From a virus, in the IMG/VR virus record IMGVR_UViG_3300035698_013693, positions 1 through 22,812 of that record: DNA of 22,812 nt. One strand, 5' to 3'. Every line of letters begins with the position of its first letter. The first letter of the stretch is position 1. The translations under genes and the position numbers were made by a program. This document shows positions 1-22,798 of the stretch, piece after piece. The notes under the pieces are model-generated. The model was not told the origin of the DNA and searched no databases. It was given only the letters and a program-made list of their open reading frames with translations.

Positions 1-122
1 ACCCGTTGTCCCTGACGTACCCGTTGTCCCTGACGTACCCGTTGTCCCTGACGTACCCGTTGTCCCTGACGTACCCGTTGTCCCTGACGTACCCGTTGTC
101 CCCGACGTACCCGTTGTCCCTG
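1..122. repeat. 18-bp tandem repeat, about 6.8 copies
   Basis: The unit acccgttgtccctgacgt is repeated head to tail from the first base of the window and breaks off at 122. All copies are identical except one, which has C instead of T at position 103. On the minus strand the array is in frame with the gene starting at 234 and encodes alternating Gly-Thr-Thr and Gly-Thr-Ser triplets. The single variant changes a Ser codon TCA to TCG and is silent. The array runs off the window edge, so its true copy number is unknown. Confidence 0.97.
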
Positions 123-234
123 TGGTGTCACATTCATTTAAAGTAGTCGTTTCTAGAACTAAGTCCAGAAGAGGAGCACCTATTTTTCTCAAAACATAAC
201 ATTTAAACTCGTCTCTAGTGGATATTCTAGCCAT
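1..234 (-). CDS. T4-like virion structural protein, N-terminal part, with collagen-like Gly-X-Y repeat (truncated by window edge)
   Basis: The frame opens with ATG at 234 behind a good ribosome site (tgaggaa, about 6 nt upstream) and stays open to base 1, so the C-terminus is missing. The first 36 residues begin MARISTRDEFKCYVLRKIGA. This resembles the 'STRxEl..YcLRrLGAP' opening that I recall from a family of virion structural proteins in marine T4-like phages; that link comes from memory and was not searched. From residue 39 to 78 the protein is 13 strict Gly-X-Y triplets plus a final Gly, alternating G-T-T and G-T-S, the pattern of a collagen-like triple helix or an extended Thr/Ser-rich linker. 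A late promoter box lies at 258-265, so expression with the other structural genes is expected. A fibre, neck or wedge role is plausible but not shown. Confidence 0.85.
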   Translation of the reverse strand, partial: MARISTRDEFKCYVLRKIGAPLLDLVLETTTLNECDTTGTTGTSGTTGTSGTTGTSGTTGTSGTTGTSGTTGTSGTTG

Positions 235-257
235 GATTATTCCTCATACATATAGTA

Positions 258-265
258 TATTTATA
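258..265 (-). promoter_or_regulatory. T4-type late promoter box TATAAATA
   Basis: On the minus strand the octamer TATAAATA lies 23 nt before the start codon at 234. It sits just inside the gap after the 414-aa gene, whose stop codon is at 269-271. Confidence 0.8.
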
Positions 266-268
266 TCT

Positions 269-1513
269 TCAGACCATGGACGATCTATTATGTTCTTTTA
301 ACTTCTTATCAATATCCTCATCTGTTTCTGGTATCTGTAAACCAAGTTTTGCTAATGTATATGCTTTTTTACCATATTTTTTAATATTTGTATTTTCGTC
401 GTATTGAGTCTCCATACCATATCTATTTAATTCAGTTATACGTCTCTTAATAGTGATAGCTTTAAAATCTCTCCAACTTGGTTCCAATTCGCATATCTCA
501 TCATGTCGTTTCTGTAATAGAAAAATCTCCATCGCTAATACTTTTTTACTATAATCACCTAATTCTTCATATATACTTTGTAGAATTCTTATAGTTTCCC
601 ATCTAACACCAACACTTTTCTTTTCGTATTTTATTGCTTTACCCCTATTCCTTAATATCGTGTCAACCACATCGATATTAATCTTAGTCCATTTTATATC
701 ATCGAACTTCTCTAATTGTTCCTCGGTTATATCACCAATCATAAAATGCCTATCTTGTGTTTCTATCAAATGCTTATATGCTTCTTTACCTTCGAAAGTA
801 AACACCTTCGCTTCTTCTTGTACTTCTAAATTAACTGGTTCAGTTATACGTTCTACTTCAACTGGTACTTTGAACTCCTGTAATACCACATCTTCCATGA
901 ATTGCTCAAAAGACTTCCCTTTATTAATTACATTTTCGTCATATACACCTGAAGTTTGCATTACACTGTCTGTCCTATCAACAACTCTCTCCACTTCTTC
1001 TATTGTTGGATCGTCATACGTGGCCTCAATTGGTTCATCGTCCACTGCAACAAAATCCTTCATATTAGGTTCATTGGGTTCATCGAGTGTCTCATCTACC
1101 CTATTTAATGTGGGTGTAGGTAATCTTAATCTATCTACGAATACAGGAACCCCTTTTGGATTCAACACCGTAACGAAATTACGTTTTAACATCTTCCGAG
1201 CAAGATTCAATTGCATTGAAAGTTTATTAGAAAAGTCATATGGGTCCACTCTAATCCCATAACTTTGTAATTCGTGTATCACATCTTCCTTTCTCATAGT
1301 ATAAGCATCCTGTGGTTGCTTAACTAAATGTAAAGGTGGTGCTAGTCTCACTAAAGTTTCATCACGAACTTCAACGAAGTTGGGATGATTGTTAATATAG
1401 TCAAACAAGTGTTTTACACCTTCACTAATAAGTACTAATTGCCCTTCTAGTAATCTATGTTGACTATAGTTATTTCTAAGATAAATATCCGCTTTTGCTT
1501 GGAATACTGCCAT
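269..1513 (-). CDS. Hypothetical protein downstream of gp23, 414 aa, probable late gene
   Basis: ATG at 1513 is preceded by aagaggaag, a strong ribosome site, and by a late promoter box at 1546-1553, so this is very likely a late gene. I do not recognise the family. The N-terminal ~140 residues (MAVFQAKADIYLRNNYSQ...) look globular. Residues ~145-265 are rich in Asp and Glu with repeated EE/DD pairs and look like a flexible linker. Residues ~270-385 are again ordered-looking and rich in charged helices, including WETIRILQSIYEELGDYSKK and a basic ITIKRRITELNR stretch that could be a small helical DNA- or protein-binding domain. Its place between the major capsid gene and another structural gene suggests a virion or head-maturation role. 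In T4 this slot holds vertex protein gp24, but no similarity to gp24 or gp23 is visible. Confidence 0.85.
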   Translation of the reverse strand: MAVFQAKADIYLRNNYSQHRLLEGQLVLISEGVKHLFDYINNHPNFVEVRDETLVRLAPPLHLVKQPQDAYTMRKEDVIHELQSYGIRVDPYDFSNKLSMQLNLARKMLKRNFVTVLNPKGVPVFVDRLRLPTPTLNRVDETLDEPNEPNMKDFVAVDDEPIEATYDDPTIEEVERVVDRTDSVMQTSGVYDENVINKGKSFEQFMEDVVLQEFKVPVEVERITEPVNLEVQEEAKVFTFEGKEAYKHLIETQDRHFMIGDITEEQLEKFDDIKWTKINIDVVDTILRNRGKAIKYEKKSVGVRWETIRILQSIYEELGDYSKKVLAMEIFLLQKRHDEICELEPSWRDFKAITIKRRITELNRYGMETQYDENTNIKKYGKKAYTLAKLGLQIPETDEDIDKKLKEHNRSSMV

Positions 1514-5095: not shown

Positions 5096-6658
5096 TTAAA
5101 GTCCACCTTCGTCACCTTCTTCGACTCCGGCATCACCTTCCATTTTCTCTTTTTCAATCATTCTTTGGTTCTCGTCCCAATCCTCTGGAGTTACTTTAAG
5201 GAAGTGCTTAACTGCCCATTCCTTAGAGAATACTTCCCCTACATAAGTAGATACTGTACCCCAAGCATTAAGACGTGATTCCTCTACCTGCGCTCTCTTC
5301 ATTTCTTCAAAATAATTATTCTTATTCATTTCAATTCTAAAGTCAGTGTCCTTTAGGTTGTATAAATCCCAAAGACCTTTTAGTTTAAGATGTGTTTTGA
5401 ATATATCCCAAAGGCACCCTGTCACTTTACGTCTAACTCTATTTACCATCTTGGAAAACTTAACTTCTTGCCAAGATATATCAGACACGCTTCCCGTATT
5501 ATATTTCTGATCTCCAGAAGAGTGATCTAAACGTCGATTAACTGGAATCTCCAATGACCTATATAACTTCTCAAGGAAGTAATTTAAGTCAGTAATCTCA
5601 CCAATGTTTTCGCCACCAGGCAATGTGTCAATTTCTGTTGAATTGCCATCCGCTGGTTGCGAGAACCAATAGTCCTCAAGCATCGAAAGGATATTGCTTT
5701 GTCCATCAATCTCGCCAGTTGACGTATTATAAATTTTGTTTTGTCGATAGGTTCTCATCAATTTCTTAACATATTCTTCTGCTTGTGCTCTAGGCATATT
5801 ACCTGTAGCAACCTTAAATACTCTTCTCTCTGGTGCTCTAACGATACGATAGATAACAACTGCTTCCTCAAGAAGTTGAAGTTGTCTCCATACTTTCTTA
5901 ACTGGTTCCAAGTAAGACACAACATACATTTCTCCAGACTCAGCATTCTCATGATAAGAATCCCAATTCTCATATGCAACCAAACTCTTAGGAATCACAC
6001 TACCTGTACCTTCACCATTAACATTAGTTACTCTAAATTGCTTAATCCCATCGAAGTCATCTTCCCATATTGGAAAAATGTTATCTGGTCTTAGACGCTT
6101 AACTCTTTTAAGCCCATCTTCTTTTCTTTCTGGATTAATAACCTTCTCATAGATAAGTTCTCCAGAAATAAGAAAAGATAAGATAGCATCTCTCCCAGTA
6201 TCTTTGAAGTTAATTAAGTCATCAAATATATATTTCCATTCTTTTCTAAGGTTATCTCTTTTATTGATGTTTTCTAGGATACTTTCATTTTGAATAACCA
6301 ACTCACCTACATTGCCATTCAAATCACTATAGTTTAGCATTTCATCACATATCATACTAATAGCATATTTAATCTCTGGGTAATCTGCCATTTGTCGATA
6401 TAGTCTCAGTTTCTGTCTCTTAGTTGGTTCCTCGAAGTTTATATATCGTCTCATGTTACCATAGAACTGAGCACCAATAATATCACCGTTCTCACCGTCA
6501 GCACCAACAAGAAGTTTATCCTTGTCTGATAATGCTACACCAGTATCTTTACTTTGTTCTTCGTAATCTAAATACCCGAATACTTTGGTTATCTTCTGAA
6601 ACCAATCTGGTCTCTCGACATTAGGATTTTCTAAGTTAAATTTTCCAAACAGACCCAT
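5096..6658 (-). CDS. 20: Portal vertex protein gp20
   Basis: 520 aa (T4 gp20 is 524), the dodecameric portal through which DNA is packaged and to which neck and tail attach. Strong block similarity to T4 gp20: residues 259-288 (LQLLEEAVVIYRIVRAPERR, then the V..GNMP element) match T4 [20 protein letters not shown] and its GNMP, and residues 310-348 (STGEI, LSMLEDYW, EIDTLPGG) match T4 STGKI, MSMTEDYW and EVDTLPGA. The early segment YRQMADYPEIKYAISMICDE is the usual gp20 helix. The C-terminus is acidic and flexible (EEGDEGGL). The start MGLFGKFNLENP is the natural one and carries a late box at 6683-6690, 24 nt upstream. It is the first gene of the gp20-core-gp21-gp22-gp23 head cassette. Confidence 0.97.
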   Translation of the reverse strand: MGLFGKFNLENPNVERPDWFQKITKVFGYLDYEEQSKDTGVALSDKDKLLVGADGENGDIIGAQFYGNMRRYINFEEPTKRQKLRLYRQMADYPEIKYAISMICDEMLNYSDLNGNVGELVIQNESILENINKRDNLRKEWKYIFDDLINFKDTGRDAILSFLISGELIYEKVINPERKEDGLKRVKRLRPDNIFPIWEDDFDGIKQFRVTNVNGEGTGSVIPKSLVAYENWDSYHENAESGEMYVVSYLEPVKKVWRQLQLLEEAVVIYRIVRAPERRVFKVATGNMPRAQAEEYVKKLMRTYRQNKIYNTSTGEIDGQSNILSMLEDYWFSQPADGNSTEIDTLPGGENIGEITDLNYFLEKLYRSLEIPVNRRLDHSSGDQKYNTGSVSDISWQEVKFSKMVNRVRRKVTGCLWDIFKTHLKLKGLWDLYNLKDTDFRIEMNKNNYFEEMKRAQVEESRLNAWGTVSTYVGEVFSKEWAVKHFLKVTPEDWDENQRMIEKEKMEGDAGVEEGDEGGL

Positions 6659-6682
6659 ACATATTTTCCTTAAGTATACTGT

Positions 6683-6690
6683 TATTTATA
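6683..6690 (-). promoter_or_regulatory. T4-type late promoter box TATAAATA (contains gp4 stop codon)
   Basis: TATAAATA on the minus strand, 24 nt before gp20. The TAA inside the octamer is the stop codon of gp4 (6688-6686). Confidence 0.82.
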
Positions 6691-7141
6691 TTCTAAAGTC
6701 TTTTTCTGTGAATTTCTTAAATTCCCAACCTTTTTTCATACAATACTTTTCTGCCGCTTCCCATTTTGCTATATTCTTAGCATATGTATATTGCTCATAT
6801 AGCATTGTCTTCTTGCTTTTCTTTTTAGAATTTCTTGGTGGAATAGTTTGTCTATATGGTTTTACTTCAATCAATACCTCTCTACCACCCATGTCTTCGA
6901 TTAAAAAGTCAGGGTAATACCTATGGGGTTTACCCATAAAATAGTACGGTATTGCTATACACTCTGAACACCAATACTTAATCTTTTCGTCAGTATCGAA
7001 ATGATTCATTAGTGTCTTTTCCCAACTGGAGCGATATATAATTTTATTCTTATTTCTACCAGAATACTTCTTTGGGTTTTTTAATTGATAGTAACCTTTT
7101 AGGTACTTAGCACCCTTATGACTTGGTTCTTTTGAGGCCAT
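6686..7141 (-). CDS. 4: Head completion protein gp4 (PD-(D/E)XK nuclease fold)
   Basis: 151 aa (T4 gp4 is 150). In T4, gp4 (also called 50/65) acts at the last step of head filling before tail joining. The match to T4 is clear: YRSSWEKTLMNHF against YRSNWEKFFFEWL, YWCSECIAIPYY against WGSETAVIPYF, YYPDFLIED against YFMDFWMKD, and LIEVKPYRQTIPP against FIEIKPKKETQPP. These contain a nuclease-type active site with E41, PD at 77-78 and E92-V-K94, that is PD-(D/E)XK. Unlike T4, the proline of the PD motif is present. The start overlaps the end of the upstream gene by 26 nt and has no late box close by, so it is probably translated from a longer transcript. It lies directly upstream of gp20. Confidence 0.93.
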   Translation of the reverse strand: MASKEPSHKGAKYLKGYYQLKNPKKYSGRNKNKIIYRSSWEKTLMNHFDTDEKIKYWCSECIAIPYYFMGKPHRYYPDFLIEDMGGREVLIEVKPYRQTIPPRNSKKKSKKTMLYEQYTYAKNIAKWEAAEKYCMKKGWEFKKFTEKDFRI

Positions 7142-7460
7142 AGATTAATTTCTCAAACATTTTTTGATGATCTTTATATATTTGATCCAACTCTAGTTCA
7201 TTAAGCCATGACACATCTTTAGTCATCTCTTTAAACTTATACAAGGGACATCCCTCTTTTACTTCCATTACATATATTTTTAAAACTTCGCTATCCTGTG
7301 TCTCCTCACCTAACTGATAACATTTAAGTGCGTCTTTTTTATTAACGCCAAGGAAATTAGCAGCACATATTTCTACTTGTTCTTGTTCGTCTTTACTTGG
7401 ATCTAAACGAGTTCTAGCAATACGATAAATCTCATCTTCATTCTCGTCATTTGGAGTCAT
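7116..7460 (-). CDS. Hypothetical protein upstream of gp4, 114 aa
   Basis: Not recognised. The product is acidic and helical (YRIARTRLDPSKDEQEQVE, then KDVSWLNELELDQIYKDHQ) with three Cys residues that form no obvious metal motif. It overlaps gp4 by 26 nt, which suggests co-translation. The ATG at 7460 has no convincing ribosome site. The frame stays open upstream of it for 17 further codons back to a TAG, reading LPFYRDEEQRIFGLF before the Met. That extension looks protein-like but contains no ATG, GTG or TTG. The true N-terminus is therefore uncertain. Position suggests a head or neck morphogenesis role, without direct evidence. Confidence 0.75.
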   Translation of the reverse strand: MTPNDENEDEIYRIARTRLDPSKDEQEQVEICAANFLGVNKKDALKCYQLGEETQDSEVLKIYVMEVKEGCPLYKFKEMTKDVSWLNELELDQIYKDHQKMFEKLIYGLKRTKS

Positions 7461-7522
7461 GAATAAACCAAAGATACGTTGCTCCTCATCCCTATAAAAA
7501 GGGAGAACCCCTATCGTATTAA

Positions 7523-8131
7523 TTATTGTTTCCTGAACGGCTTTTTTTTTGACTCGGTAGTGTTTATAGTTGGGAATTTTCTTTTAAGGGGTTTCTCTTT
7601 TTTAAACCCTACATGTTTATTAATAGCAACATTACCAGTGGATGTCTGACCACTAGTTGAAATATCATTCGGTGTACCAATACCAACGCCACCAGTACCG
7701 CCCATTGCTTCTTCATTCATATCGAAATAACGAGTAACGTAGTTACTAGCATCAGTTGGTCTATAAAACTTTTTCTTTCTTAATTTATTAATAGTGTTTT
7801 CTGGATTATTAAATCTAAACATCTCGACGTTAAACATAGAATCGTCATCATACTCACCTTCTGACCCAAAACCCTCAACTGCAATCATAAAACTTATTTT
7901 AGCATTAGCAAGTTGCTCATTTGTAGCACCTTCAAAAGGATGACTTGAGAATTTAATAAAAATAGTACCATTGCCATTCTCTGTCTTATCAAAGATAACT
8001 TTAGAAAATAACTTCCCAAACTTTCTTCGGATGTGAGTCTTCATCCTAGCAACAATCTCACCTAACCCTTGATTGGGTTGACAAGACTCATAAATTTCTA
8101 AAAATTTATTAAGTTTATCTAATGACGACAT
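7523..8131 (-). CDS. Hypothetical late protein, 202 aa
   Basis: The start ATG at 8131 has agaggt about 7 nt upstream and a late box at 8151-8158. The first ~145 residues look like one globular domain: an N-terminal helix MSSLDKLNKFLEIYESCQ, then beta-type segments such as GTIFIKFSSHPFEGA and KISFMIAVEGFG. It is followed by a Gly/Thr/Ser-rich linker (GGTGGVGIGTPND) and a strongly basic tail (KKEKPLKRKFP, ESKKKPFRKQ). A globular domain with a flexible basic tail would suit a DNA-contacting packaging or head protein, but I do not recognise the family and this is inference only. Confidence 0.85.
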   Translation of the reverse strand: MSSLDKLNKFLEIYESCQPNQGLGEIVARMKTHIRRKFGKLFSKVIFDKTENGNGTIFIKFSSHPFEGATNEQLANAKISFMIAVEGFGSEGEYDDDSMFNVEMFRFNNPENTINKLRKKKFYRPTDASNYVTRYFDMNEEAMGGTGGVGIGTPNDISTSGQTSTGNVAINKHVGFKKEKPLKRKFPTINTTESKKKPFRKQ

Positions 8132-8150
8132 TCACGTACCTCTTTTATCT

Positions 8151-8158
8151 TATTTATA
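8151..8158 (-). promoter_or_regulatory. T4-type late promoter box TATAAATA
   Basis: TATAAATA on the minus strand after the RNase H gene, 19 nt before the start of the 202-aa gene. It re-establishes late transcription downstream of RNase H. Confidence 0.82.
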
Positions 8159-8174
8159 AAAAAGATACTAGAAG

Positions 8175-9218
8175 TTATTCACATAATGGTTCTAGGAGAT
8201 TCCCGATCCTAGAAGTGTCGTCCATGAATTCATTGAAACTATTAGAAATGAAAAATTCAAAGAGTTTTTTTAAACCAACACACATATCATAGTTCTCGTA
8301 TGTCTCGTTTATCTCTTGTTGTATTTCCTTTGGTTGAGCCATTAAGTTCACTAACTTATTATTTCTAATGAACTTCTTTTTTAAATCTGGATGTTCGTCT
8401 AAAAAGTCTTTTATTGTGTTAGATTTGATCAACCCATTAACTTGCTTCTTAGGAAATGCCATGACTCTAGATGGTTTAATACCATATTTTTTTTGAAATT
8501 CGAGTTCGTTATAGATCATTAAGTATTCATCTGCTTCAAATTTCACCCTTAGATTGTATTCGTTGTCTGCAACACCCTCTTTTACGCACCAATCGATAAA
8601 TTCCTGTTTAAATAGGTGTCTGTCCTTGATAGAAGGCACAAAGTCACCTTTGTCACCCAACATAATCTTTCTTAGGAGTTCTTCCTTTGGGTCATCACAT
8701 ACCATAAACTCTTTTTTGATTGGATTATACACCCTTACCATAGGGTTAGCAAGTAGTTGAAGATAATCCTTATCTGTTGTAATGAGTATCTTCATATTGT
8801 GCTCTAAATCCTCATGTTTAGTTAAGACACCAGCAATATCATCTGCTTCTGCGGTGTCTACCCGTAATACTTTAACTGGTAAGTTTTCAGCAATATCTTT
8901 CAACAGTCTATCATATTGCTCATAGTATTCTTTAAAATTGAACCAATGTTCTACTCCATCCTCTTCATCACGAAGTATCTTACGATGTGCTTTGTAATAT
9001 TTAAATACCTCCTTTCTCCAGTTCCCTCTAGCATCTAAAGCAATTATTAATTCGTCTGCATTAAACTTCTCTATAAACTGAAAAAGACCCCCGATGAAGT
9101 AATACCTCCATAGTTGGTATGCTTCCTCGGGAGTCTCCTCCTTTTTACATCCGAAAATTAGTCTAAGTCCATGATTGGACCCATCTAATACAACAGTTAC
9201 TTTTTTTCCATTTTCCAT
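8175..9218 (-). CDS. rnh: RNase H / 5'-3' exonuclease of the FEN-1 family (T4 Rnh-like)
   Basis: 347 aa (T4 RNase H is 305). In T4 it removes RNA primers and adjacent DNA from Okazaki fragments. The metal-binding acidic residues of the FEN fold appear in order: D12 (VVLDGSN), D62 in ALDARGNWRKEVFKYYK (T4 CIDNAKSGYWRRDFAYYY), E124/D126/D127 in DTAEADDIAGVL, D149/D151 in LITTDKDYLQLL, and D189/D192 in MLGDKGDFVPSI (T4 LKGDKKDNVASV). The C-terminal extension of ~40 residues is Phe/Asn-rich and unassigned. It is flanked on both sides by genes with late boxes, but itself has a sigma70-like promoter (9241-9278) and no late box. That fits early expression of a replication gene inside a structural region. 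Confidence 0.95.
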   Translation of the reverse strand: MENGKKVTVVLDGSNHGLRLIFGCKKEETPEEAYQLWRYYFIGGLFQFIEKFNADELIIALDARGNWRKEVFKYYKAHRKILRDEEDGVEHWFNFKEYYEQYDRLLKDIAENLPVKVLRVDTAEADDIAGVLTKHEDLEHNMKILITTDKDYLQLLANPMVRVYNPIKKEFMVCDDPKEELLRKIMLGDKGDFVPSIKDRHLFKQEFIDWCVKEGVADNEYNLRVKFEADEYLMIYNELEFQKKYGIKPSRVMAFPKKQVNGLIKSNTIKDFLDEHPDLKKKFIRNNKLVNLMAQPKEIQQEINETYENYDMCVGLKKLFEFFISNSFNEFMDDTSRIGNLLEPLCE

Positions 9219-9240
9219 AGGGGTTTCCCAATAAGGAATA

Positions 9241-9278
9241 ATTATAGGTCAAAAAATCTGTTTATCAAATGCTTTCTT
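9241..9278 (-). promoter_or_regulatory. Sigma70-like (early-type) promoter of RNase H within a 38-nt element shared with 19111-19148
   Basis: On the minus strand TTGATA (9268-9263), a 16-nt spacer and a perfect TATAAT (9246-9241) precede the RNase H start by 22 nt. The surrounding 38 nt, beginning aagaaagcattt and containing cagattttttg, match the plus-strand element at 19111-19148 at 31 of 38 positions. It also overlaps the end of a 28-codon frame (9249-9335). Confidence 0.7.
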
Positions 9279-12737: not shown

Positions 12738-13646
12738 TTACTTAGTTATAAGACTGTTCTCCTTGACACCTTCTTCATCGTCTTCGTCGTCTTCGGAGTC
12801 ATCACTATCCGCTTCTGGATCTTTAGTAAAGTCATCAGATTCACCATCTTCATCTTCACCTTCTTCGTCTGTCTCTTCTTCATTAGACCCTTCACCTTTT
12901 TCAATTTCAATACTAATCCCATTTGCTTTAATGGATACTGAATCGTCGTCCTGATCTACTTGGATGTCTCCACCTTCTCCTTCACCTTCGTAGTCGTAGT
13001 CTTCTTCTTCGTCGCCGCCTTCGTCGTCACTACCACCGAGTTCAAAGTCAGATTCCTCACCTTCGTCACCGCCATTTAGGTTAGCATCAGCAAGATCACC
13101 ATCTTCACCTTCATCGTCAGTTAGAGGTTCTACGTCACCAATCGTTGTGTCGTCACCTTCTGGTTCTTCTTCACCACCAACTTGTGGTTCATCACTTGGT
13201 ACTAGACTATCACCTTCACCATTGTTTGCCATTTCAGTAGTTTCATCATTATCGGCACACGCACAACCTTGGCAGTTTGGAGCAGTACAACCATCTGCGT
13301 GCTTAATAACCACATCTTCACCACCTTCTGGCGCAACATCATCTACAGGCATTTCTTCTGCAGGAGGCATATCATCCATAGGTTCTTCACTGCCTTCTGG
13401 TGCAACATCATCTGCAGGCATTTCTTCTGCAGGAGGCATATCATCCATAGGTTCTTCGCCACCAACTTCTGGAGACACAGGAGGCAATTCTTCTGCTGTT
13501 GTACCAACAGAATCACCTGGAATAAGTTCATCGTCACCCATAGGTGCTTCTGGTTCCTGATAATCGATAGTATTCATAAACTCATGTTCGAGTTTGCCTA
13601 ATCTACTATCTATTCTCAATAGAATATCTTTAATGTCTTGATCCAT
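12738..13646 (-). CDS. Extremely acidic repeat protein with Cys cluster, 302 aa
   Basis: The start is ATG at 13646 with AGGAG 7 nt upstream; a GTG at 13664 lies before that site and is unlikely. After a short N-terminal helix (MDQDIKDILLRIDSRLGKLE), nearly the whole protein is Asp, Glu, Gly and Pro. Residues 64-109 are two tandem copies of a 23-residue unit built on EEPMDDMPPAEEMP. Residues 120-130 hold CTAPNCQGCAC, a possible metal-binding knot in an otherwise Cys-free protein. The segment VSIKANGISIEIEKGE (residues ~235-250) is the only stretch that looks beta-structured. A late box lies at 13684-13691. No known family. It may be a prohead core or inner-head component, or a DNA-mimic protein; this is inference. 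Confidence 0.85.
   Translation of the reverse strand: MDQDIKDILLRIDSRLGKLEHEFMNTIDYQEPEAPMGDDELIPGDSVGTTAEELPPVSPEVGGEEPMDDMPPAEEMPADDVAPEGSEEPMDDMPPAEEMPVDDVAPEGGEDVVIKHADGCTAPNCQGCACADNDETTEMANNGEGDSLVPSDEPQVGGEEEPEGDDTTIGDVEPLTDDEGEDGDLADANLNGGDEGEESDFELGGSDDEGGDEEEDYDYEGEGEGGDIQVDQDDDSVSIKANGISIEIEKGEGSNEEETDEEGEDEDGESDDFTKDPEADSDDSEDDEDDEEGVKENSLITK
13320..13457. repeat. Two tandem copies of a 69-bp in-frame unit
   Basis: Positions 13389-13457 and 13320-13388 are near-identical 69-bp units (only a few differences, e.g. an Ala to Val codon) encoding a 23-aa acidic Pro/Met motif twice in the 302-aa protein. The length is a multiple of three and keeps the frame. It looks like a recent duplication. 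Confidence 0.93.
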
Positions 13647-13683
13647 GGTTAGACTCCTGTTCACCTAAATAACAATTTACTTA

Positions 13684-14462: not shown

Positions 14463-16988
14463 TTAGTATTTTATCCTACCCCACCTACCAGTCATCAAAT
14501 AATAATCATGCTCATTAATTACTGAATCTCTGGTAGCACTTTCTAAGTGAGTTGCCCAATGCTCATTGCAACAAATACTCTTATACCCTTCTCTATTAGT
14601 TTTCAAACAAAGGTCAACGTCTTGGAAAACTTTTTCGTATTCTTCATCAAATCCAACAATTTCCAAGAATAATTCAGTTGGCATCATCAAACAAGCACCA
14701 GTAACACCATGTACTATTTCATTCTCATCTCTCGTACTCTTCTCTTTATAATCAATATGCTCTGGCAAATAAAATTTATCTGGATTTCGTTCATCACTAA
14801 TAACCATCTTAACACCGCCATGCTGAACTGTACCATCTTCGTATAGAAGTTTAAGACCAGCAATACCAAACTTACCTTTTATTAACTTACTCATACCTTC
14901 AACGATATCACTATTAACAAACACGTCATTGTTCAAAAATAGAACTCGGTTGTATTTTGCATGTTTAACTACTAAATTATTATTCTTAGAAAATTGATAC
15001 TCTCCTGCATCAATTACTTTAATGTCATTTCTGAGCACCTCATATATTTCAAGGGCATTCACATCAGTCGTGCCAGTATCACCAACTAAAATTTCATAAT
15101 TGTCTTGTTTAGTGTTATCTATAAGTCTATTGAGACATTCACCGATCAACTCTGGTTTATCCTTACTTAATATAACAATAGATACGCCATCTTCTCTTTT
15201 GGAAAGATATTGTTTAACGTCATACCTCAGATAATTCTTCGCATTCACACTTTCATCTATATGCTGCAGATCAATATCCTCTACTTTAGGTTCAAGTCCC
15301 AACATTTCCCCAAGATACCAAAATGCTTTATTTTTTCTATAGTGTACCGTTGTAGTTGAAATAAAAGGGAACCTACCAGCCCATTTCTTAAAGAATTTTT
15401 TTCCCTGTCTTCTATATTCATCGTAACCACCTTTTTTCTTAAGGTTAACATCACCACCTGAGTGATGGGTAATTGGTATCTTGATCACATAGTTATTTAA
15501 TTTAATATTAAGTGCCTGACAGCAAATATCTGCCCCATAAAAATGAAAGTGATCTAGATATTCCCCAAACTTCAATTTATTTTTACTATCACCAATCAAA
15601 CAAAATTCATCAACAGTCTGTGCTTTTAGAAAATCGAAGTTGTAATTAATATTAGAAAAATCAACACCACGTATTGCCCCTTTACCTCCAACTTGGATAC
15701 CTGCTGGTCCAATGATACCAAATGGACCACCTATGTTATTAATGATGTTCTGAATGTTAGCAAACGGTTCGTTAGCATCAAAAGTAACATCTTGGTGCAT
15801 CCACATCAAGTACCTACCTTCACTCACCTCAGATAGTGTATTCAGTGCCTCTGAGGACCACATGAAGTTAGAGGTGTTGTTCACATATATAAATTCATAC
15901 CTTTCTCTTGACTTAATACTATTGTATAGAGATAGCATTTGATTCTTTCTTGTAGCACATACCAAAATGGAAAATGTCTTTTTGCTTTCAACTGGAAAAT
16001 TACCTTTTTGTACCCAGTCAACTTTAAACTTAATAAAGTCCGATCTAGACTCTTCTTTCACATCTTCTTTTCTAGTGCCATGGTCTATGTGGTATAGTGC
16101 CTTTTCTCTAACACAAAAGTTAGTATATCCTAATTGCCCAACCTTGAGGTTAAGATCAACATCTTGGAGAATATCTACATACTCTTCGTTAAACCCACCA
16201 ACTTTATTAAATAACGATTTTCGCATCATCAAGAATGCCGCAGTTACACCTTCTACTTTAACATTCTCAGTAGAAATATCCTCTAGGGTTCTACCTAGAT
16301 TGTAATGCCCTGGTCCATTCCAAAGTCCATCCCATGGTTGATACAGAACCTGTCCATCATGCTGAATAGTATCTCTCTTCCCATCATAAACTAATCGATG
16401 CCCAACACATCCAATGTTACTACATAGTTGATACTTAATCATAGTTGATATAGCATCGTATGTAAGAAACACATCATTGTTCATAAAGAGCACAACACTA
16501 CCAGAAGATTTCTTAACCAGAAAGTTATTATTCTTAGAGAAGTTATATTCATGCCCCATAAAGACACGGAACTTATCTTTATTCGTGTCATAGTAGTCTA
16601 AAACGTTCTTATCAGTTGTACCCGTATCACACACAAGTACCTCGAAGTCATGATAATCTGTATGTTCATAAATACTTTCTATACATCGTTGTATAACACC
16701 ATCACCGTCCTTAGAAACAATACAAATAGAAACTCTAGGTGCTCCATCTTCTTCGATAGCATCCCAGTCAATGAATGGTTCATAAAGATTCTTTATTTGT
16801 AATCTAATGTTTCTTCGTGCTCTCTCTGGATCACTTTTCTCTATCTTACTAAGACCAATCACTTCGAAATTCTCAAAGTCTTTGAAACTCTCTGGACCAC
16901 TAAATACCTTATGTGGTTTAATTAATTTCCGCTCTCCATTAAGTGTCACTACAACATTTTCAGTACCAGTATATCTAATTAATGCCAT
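14463..16988 (-). CDS. Multi-domain family-2 (GT-A) glycosyltransferase, three tandem domains, 841 aa
   Basis: Transfers sugars from nucleotide-sugar donors; the acceptor is unknown. Domain 1 (residues ~85-305) opens with VSICIVSKDGDGVIQRCIESI, has the metal-site motif FMNNDVF (N170-N-D172), QHDG and the catalytic QDVD (275-278). Domain 3 (~602-830) repeats the layout with VSIVILSKDKPELIGECLNR, FLNNDVF (686-688), QHGG and QDVD (789-792). Domains 1 and 3 are obvious duplicates. The middle (~338-515) is a third, different GT-A-like unit: FSILVCATRKNQML, MHQDV (397-401, DXD equivalent), GPAGIQVGGKG and HHSGG. The first ~75 residues (MALIRYTGTENVVVTLNGER) are not a transferase and look like a small beta domain. 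ATG overlaps the uvsW stop (TAATG), so the two are co-translated. Possible targets are virion proteins, host surface glycans or phage DNA; the sequence does not decide. Confidence 0.92.
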   Translation of the reverse strand: MALIRYTGTENVVVTLNGERKLIKPHKVFSGPESFKDFENFEVIGLSKIEKSDPERARRNIRLQIKNLYEPFIDWDAIEEDGAPRVSICIVSKDGDGVIQRCIESIYEHTDYHDFEVLVCDTGTTDKNVLDYYDTNKDKFRVFMGHEYNFSKNNNFLVKKSSGSVVLFMNNDVFLTYDAISTMIKYQLCSNIGCVGHRLVYDGKRDTIQHDGQVLYQPWDGLWNGPGHYNLGRTLEDISTENVKVEGVTAAFLMMRKSLFNKVGGFNEEYVDILQDVDLNLKVGQLGYTNFCVREKALYHIDHGTRKEDVKEESRSDFIKFKVDWVQKGNFPVESKKTFSILVCATRKNQMLSLYNSIKSRERYEFIYVNNTSNFMWSSEALNTLSEVSEGRYLMWMHQDVTFDANEPFANIQNIINNIGGPFGIIGPAGIQVGGKGAIRGVDFSNINYNFDFLKAQTVDEFCLIGDSKNKLKFGEYLDHFHFYGADICCQALNIKLNNYVIKIPITHHSGGDVNLKKKGGYDEYRRQGKKFFKKWAGRFPFISTTTVHYRKNKAFWYLGEMLGLEPKVEDIDLQHIDESVNAKNYLRYDVKQYLSKREDGVSIVILSKDKPELIGECLNRLIDNTKQDNYEILVGDTGTTDVNALEIYEVLRNDIKVIDAGEYQFSKNNNLVVKHAKYNRVLFLNNDVFVNSDIVEGMSKLIKGKFGIAGLKLLYEDGTVQHGGVKMVISDERNPDKFYLPEHIDYKEKSTRDENEIVHGVTGACLMMPTELFLEIVGFDEEYEKVFQDVDLCLKTNREGYKSICCNEHWATHLESATRDSVINEHDYYLMTGRWGRIKY

Positions 16989-22339: not shown

Positions 22340-22747
22340 ATGAAACAAGAATTTGTTAAATTAGTCAAAACACTAAATGAGAATGTTGATATAGAAATGG
22401 AAGCAGCCGATGATATGGAAGTATCTGGCGAAGTTAATAAAATATTTGGACCAGGTGAAGAAAAATTCATAGAAGAGTGCCACGGACAACAAGTAGTGTT
22501 TAAAGTATATATGCCAGAAACAGATGTTATGGCAACTGTAGAAGGTGAATTGAATTATGATAAACGATCTAAACTCATTTATATTGAACAATCTAACACA
22601 AAAGTAAGTCTTACAAGTAAACTGGTTTTAGAACCTAATTTAGTTGAATCTAAAGGAATGGGTGACGATGGATCATTTATTCGTTTTGAGATAAAAGATG
22701 GCCAATATGGTTGTTTAGTTATCATACAAAAACCACGTATTGTTTAG
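22340..22747 (+). CDS. Hypothetical late protein, 135 aa, C-terminus altered by tandem repeat
   Basis: ATG at 22340 has tggag 7 nt upstream and a late box at 22306-22313. Two earlier in-frame ATGs (22292 and 22328) precede or overlap these signals and are rejected. The N-terminal ~30 residues are acidic helix (MKQEFVKLVKTLNENVDIEM). The rest reads as a beta-rich domain (QQVVFKVYMPETDVMATVEG, KLIYIEQSNTKVSLTSKLVL). Not recognised. The last 12 codons lie in the first copy of a 29-bp repeat. Because 29 is not a multiple of three, the frame now ends KPRIV. Without the extra copies it would end KPRNE plus TAA. Confidence 0.8.
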   Translation: MKQEFVKLVKTLNENVDIEMEAADDMEVSGEVNKIFGPGEEKFIEECHGQQVVFKVYMPETDVMATVEGELNYDKRSKLIYIEQSNTKVSLTSKLVLEPNLVESKGMGDDGSFIRFEIKDGQYGCLVIIQKPRIV

Positions 22748-22798
22748 TTATCATACAAAAACCACGTATTGTTTAGTTATCATACAAAAACCACGTAA
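22712..22798. repeat. 29-bp tandem repeat, three copies
   Basis: Copies at 22712-22740, 22741-22769 and 22770-22798 are identical except for the last base (T, T, A). The unit starts tgtttagttatcataca. The first copy codes for the end of the 135-aa protein; the other two lie mostly after its stop. The window ends 14 bases later. Confidence 0.96.

Follow-up and report, generated by a model that had tools for sequence, protein, structure and literature searches.

A collagen-like Gly-Thr/Ser repeat inside the gp13-type neck protein of a T4-like phage

In phages, collagen-like repeats have been described in fibres with a free end and in short stretches of capsid proteins. Phage collagen triple helices are real, as in EPclA (PMC3368898), and the collagen-like protein BclA of bacteria is glycosylated (PMC8968730). 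At the neck of phage T4, gp13 forms a dodecamer with helices 1 and 2 in the core bundle, I24 and I25 contact gp14, and an insertion at residues 190-239 binds fibritin (PMC12270204). (PDB entries for T4 gp13 are 9mkb and 9lu4-9lu7.) In Milano, neck parts are linked by disulfides (PMC10491603). Here we describe a gp13-type neck protein that has a collagen-like array between its first two helices.

The window (the whole stretch of DNA that we analyzed) is a 22,812-base virus contig that ends inside this array. Positions 1-122 contain 6.8 copies of an 18-bp tandem unit, with a 98% match and zero indels. On the minus strand, the frame that opens at 234 translates as MARISTRDEFKCYVLRKIGAPLLDLVLETTTLNECD TT (GTT GTS)n. 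In other words, 36 residues and Thr-Thr are followed by 14 glycines in perfect register, which gives 13 full Gly-X-Y triplets, and the frame is still open at base 1. The features at this end of the window are:

1..126, minus strand: Gly-Thr-Thr/Gly-Thr-Ser array (18-bp unit), codons 37-78 of the gp13-type neck protein; carries on in record L122, 12796->11930
127..234, minus strand: first 36 residues of gp13, comprising helix 1 and the loop that leads to helix 2, from matches to gp13 N-termini
235..245, minus strand: ribosome-binding site GAGG, ahead of the ATG at 234, from the sequence
258..265, minus strand: T4-type late promoter TATAAATA, from the sequence
269..1513, minus strand: 414-aa ORF between gp23 and gp13, of no known family; a 49% identical relative has the same place in record L085
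1621..3045, minus strand: gp23 major head protein (phrog_138, E = 1.1e-90)

A first-pass annotation had described 13 perfect Gly-X-Y triplets behind a 36-residue N-terminus, and both the repeat analysis and the translation bear this out. It had also called the only base change in the array silent; the change is TCA to TCG, and both codons encode serine. Thr and Ser account for 28 of the 42 array residues, and the window's array has no proline and no charge. Pfam's Collagen family matches it with E = 3.1e-6 and 27.3 bits (the cut-off is 27.2). Across all frames of the window, the next longest run with glycine at every third residue is 4. The late promoter and ribosome site that had been assigned to this gene are present too: its minus-strand leader reads TATAAATATACTATATGTATGAGGAATAATC-ATG, with the promoter at 258-265 and GAGG before the ATG. 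The window contains TATAAATA at 14 sites, where 3 would be expected, and nearly all of them are oriented with the genes.

The rest of the window is from a T4-like phage, with a gp4-type head closure protein, gp20, gp23, UvsW and UvsY types, and SbcC. The minus-strand gene order is gp20, protease, scaffold, gp23, the 414-aa ORF, and the array gene. (The gp21- and gp22-type ORFs between gp20 and gp23 were assigned by position only.) In the viral contigs, genome contigs and phage records that we searched, the sole relative of the 414-aa ORF is the one in L085; judging from its position, the ORF may have a virion or head-tail role. Elsewhere in the window, a 202-aa ORF (7523-8131) weakly resembles a tail completion or Neck1 family (E = 0.003), and a 69-bp tandem repeat (13315-13463) lies within ORF 12738-13664, which is acidic and of low complexity. 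Close to the contig's right end are three perfect 29-bp tandem copies (22711-22797); these sit in ORF 22340-22747 and shift its frame, which could be real or an assembly effect.

When two units of the array were used as a query against the 2.9 million contigs of IMG/VR, exactly one other record was found. This record, L122 (12,797 bases), terminates within the same array, in the same orientation as the window, and has 70 bp exactly in common with it, including the TCG variant. From the array, the frame in L122 runs through GDSTTQTTATTGTPQCQAFSESVC into the body of gp13 (the sequence right after the array is GDSTTQTTATTGTPQCQAFSESVCTQLDLAIDDTLDYFQQF..., which begins the gp13 body). L122 11930-12586 matches phrog_211, the head-tail adaptor Ad2 family, with E = 1.3e-10. 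So the frame does not close after the repeat, the array does not look like an artefact, and the collagen-like domain does lie within a T4-like neck-type structural protein, as the first-pass annotation had proposed. We had considered that the 36 residues might be the head of a separate fibre protein; we rejected this because L122 has the gp13 body after the array, and there is no fibre module there of the kind that a collagen-like tail fibre would have.

Downstream of the gp13 body, L122 encodes gp14, gp15, TerL, gp18 and gp19 types, an order that fits with gp20-21-22-23 ahead in the window, and it also has T4-type late promoters. Of the loci compared, L122 comes nearest to the window in tetranucleotide profile (r = 0.69; the two halves of the window give 0.72). 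The gp13 parts of the two records are complementary, with almost no overlap. We conclude that one virus is probably behind both. They could be strains rather than one genome: the two arrays are out of register where they would join, with 5 GTT-type units before the TCG variant in the window and 2 in L122. The gene is not covered in full by any one contig.

The large terminase gene of L122 has a feature of its own. It is apparently in two ORFs (5623-7350 and 7379-7723, minus strand), with an intein that is atypically split at the Walker A motif. Its N part is short, about 30 aa from CVFSDTLIKV on, and its C part is longer and ends GILSHN|S; the match of this putative intein to Pfam's Intein_splicing (2e-5) is below the family cut-off. 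Split inteins of this TerL kind are already known.

Several comparisons identify the gene as gp13. The first-pass annotation had suggested a profile search with residues 1-36. Alone, this start matches no family in Pfam or PHROGs, but by tblastn it is 41-47% identical to the N-termini of annotated gp13 or head-tail adaptor Ad2 proteins (E = 8e-3), and residues 1-34 fit the motif of the N-terminal helix, R..[LF]..Y.L..[LI]G.P. Our main HMM was built from nine annotated gp13 proteins, with neither the window nor L122 among its rows. It matches L122 over model positions 33-264 (E = 5e-21) and the beginning of the window's gene over positions 3-34 (E = 3.5e-3), the latter being the top-scoring ORF of the window. 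None of 2000 shuffles of the 36 residues came near the window's score. (An earlier HMM from 21 gp13 proteins gave E = 3e-6 for the window, but it is partly circular, as most of its rows were found through the N-terminus.) By itself, the match of the 36-residue sequence is short and weak.

Predicted structures agree. AlphaFold modeled the L122 half with low confidence (mean pLDDT 54) and gave no order in the array, yet when this low-confidence model was compared with the PDB by Foldseek, the best six matches were all T4 gp13 (E = 1e-5 to 5e-5). The predicted structure of a reference gp13, L103, matches T4 gp13 with E = 1.5e-13; its helix 1 spans residues 7-17 and helix 2 starts at 29. In an alignment with T4 and marine gp13 proteins, the array comes after ...GAP(L/I)(L/I)... 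and ahead of ...LDLAIDD.LDYF. What the window contains is thus the beginning of a T4-like gp13 neck (head-tail adaptor) gene: its 36-residue start, followed by the first part of an array that is inserted into the loop joining helix 1 to helix 2. A Gly-X-Y array is absent from 21 other gp13 proteins and from T4. We also considered the 720-position N-terminal part of phrog_211 as a precedent for the insertion, but ordinary gp13 begins at 722, so that part is an N-terminal extension and differs from this loop.

A diverged relative has the same arrangement. L085 was found via its capsid protein, which is 70% identical to the window's, and its gene order is as in the window: gp23, the relative of the 414-aa ORF (49%), and then MARISNRTQFKCYVLSKLGHPILDLPIQISEIDECATSSSTGASGTPGITG... 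and a Gly-X-Y array that likewise ends at the contig end. (L085 carries an extra 591-aa ORF, absent from the window, between gp23 and the relative of the 414-aa ORF. This ORF, 7491-9266, weakly resembles the Mom family, scoring just under the cut-off.) Over the 36-residue start, the two proteins are 56% identical, with 8 synonymous and 16 replaced codons out of 36, and the main gp13 HMM matches the L085 start with E = 8e-4. The repeat unit of L085 is 27 bp and encodes Gly-Thr-Ser-Gly-Thr-Pro-Gly-Ile-Thr. Nevertheless, the position of the array, the flanking Cys12 and Cys35, and the promoter, including TATAAATA, are all kept. Glycine at each third residue over many triplets, as expected of collagen-like sequence, is seen in all three records (the window and L122 have 13 triplets each, and L085 has about 15). 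A search with the L085 repeat did not find the missing half of that virus.

Our preferred explanation, with a probability of roughly 0.62, is that the array is a length-variable Gly-Thr/Ser surface loop that each of 12 gp13 subunits displays at the neck. As in T4, twelve subunits would form a ring between the portal and gp14. The position of the array in gp13, together with the T4 structure, places the loop near the gp13/gp14 junction, so each virion would have twelve such loops adjoining it. The loop may be flexible or polyproline-II-like, and its base is perhaps pinned by cysteines (Cys35 before the array and two after it). Repeat number would be altered by slippage or unequal recombination. 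By analogy with T4, the loop would point outward; in cis, it could take on part of the role of the neck fibres that other phages add. Candidate roles are contacts with tail fibres or with the surroundings, or shielding of the joint.

Could the array instead be an assembly artefact, in which either the assembler generated a tandem repeat where the contig stops or a gp13 start was wrongly fused to a fibre repeat? It does lie at the extreme end of the contig, and the window's right end has the perfect 29-bp copies. But the arrangement recurs in L122 and L085, and L122 joins the other side of the array to a gp13 body. That the window and L085 share the arrangement with different DNA repeats also argues against an artefact, which we consider extremely unlikely. 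A tolerated coding repeat, which stays in frame in a permissive loop and has no specific role, would account for the variation in unit and number between relatives, for the low complexity of the sequence, and for the absence of the array from the other 21 gp13 proteins and T4. Against it, glycine at every third residue is retained in both lineages despite unlike DNA units, and L085 keeps the position, Cys12, Cys35 and promoter; we view this explanation as unlikely.

The same perfect glycine register in two diverged relatives, along with the Pfam Collagen matches, would fit a true collagen triple helix. Neighboring gp13 subunits would associate in threes to form up to four rod-like whiskers in cis, replacing fibritin. 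Twelve subunits are divisible by 3, phages do have such helices (EPclA, PMC3368898), and T4 gp13 bears neck fibres via another domain (PMC12270204). However, the array is tethered at both ends to one subunit, and with both ends held close, a long parallel triple helix is awkward. By a rough estimate, a rod of 14-20 triplets would be about 12-17 nm long, while the linkers (about 10 and 11-20 residues) would reach about 7-10 nm. There is also no adjoining trimerisation domain, no proline or charge in the window's array, and no order there in the low-confidence AlphaFold model. We therefore think that the triple helix is improbable, and the trimeric fibre-like stalk of the first-pass annotation is doubtful: in this dodecameric ring protein, the array is inserted in a single chain, after helix 1 and before helix 2. 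The broader idea that this lineage builds its neck fibres in cis, with collagen-like gp13 loops assembled around the head-tail joint instead of separate fibritin whiskers and repeat number setting their length, is likewise rather unlikely. A further proposal concerns the ORF at 14463-16988, which the annotation had correctly recognized as a large glycosyltransferase. It is a tandem GT2 enzyme, with a 63% relative in the L085 record. If it attached glycans to the array's Thr and Ser (two-thirds of its residues), as happens to BclA (PMC8968730), the neck would be mucin-like. But the enzyme is encoded 14 kb away, nothing ties it to the gp13 array, and phage enzymes of this kind can modify DNA or other virion proteins. 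Nor is the composition unusual, as had been claimed. In 460 runs of at least 10 triplets from 79 viral loci, Ser and Thr make up 74% of X and Y residues and Pro makes up 1%, and 402 of the 460 runs lack proline. (As the 79 loci of this first scan were chosen by similarity, they demonstrate that arrays of this sort are common but do not make them representative of collagen-like proteins in general.) Glycosylation of the array by this enzyme seems very unlikely.

The surface loop that we favor would mean that a fast-evolving decoration can be accommodated, and perhaps put to use, at the neck joint. The collagen-like repeat lies within one of the neck's core ring proteins, at a position given by the recent T4 structure, and its presence in gp13 accounts for the breaks that separate assemblies have at this gene. 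The T4-like phage with this gp13 variant is known from metagenomes only. In the open-access literature and the gp13 proteins that we sampled, we found no published collagen-like insert in a neck protein. Collagen-like repeats and gp13 are themselves known; what is new is the placement in the gp13 ring protein rather than in a separate fibre.

How does this protein compare with known systems? Like T4 gp13 (phrog_211), it has the N-terminal motif, the C-terminal signature YND.WV..Y.TAL...G.NL....G..LPGG, a matching fold, and a neighborhood of gp14, gp15, TerL, sheath and tube types. Unlike T4 gp13, it has an array of at least 13 Gly-X-Y triplets between helices 1 and 2, and the alignment shows nothing that corresponds to the fibritin-binding insertion (T4 190-239). 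(We saw no gene for fibritin in either the window or L122.) The perfect Gly-X-Y register resembles that of EPclA-type fibres and of the GTS-rich loci L006-L084, and the Ser/Thr-rich X and Y positions resemble those of L006-L084; but fibres of the EPclA type carry trimerisation domains and are free at the distal end, whereas here a two-ended loop lies in a dodecameric ring protein. As an added element at the neck, the loop is reminiscent of the whiskers of T4 fibritin (wac), the spikes of XM1 and the collar of Milano, and the cysteines that flank the array recall Milano's disulfide-linked neck parts. Those elements are separate proteins, whereas this one is built into the ring protein itself.
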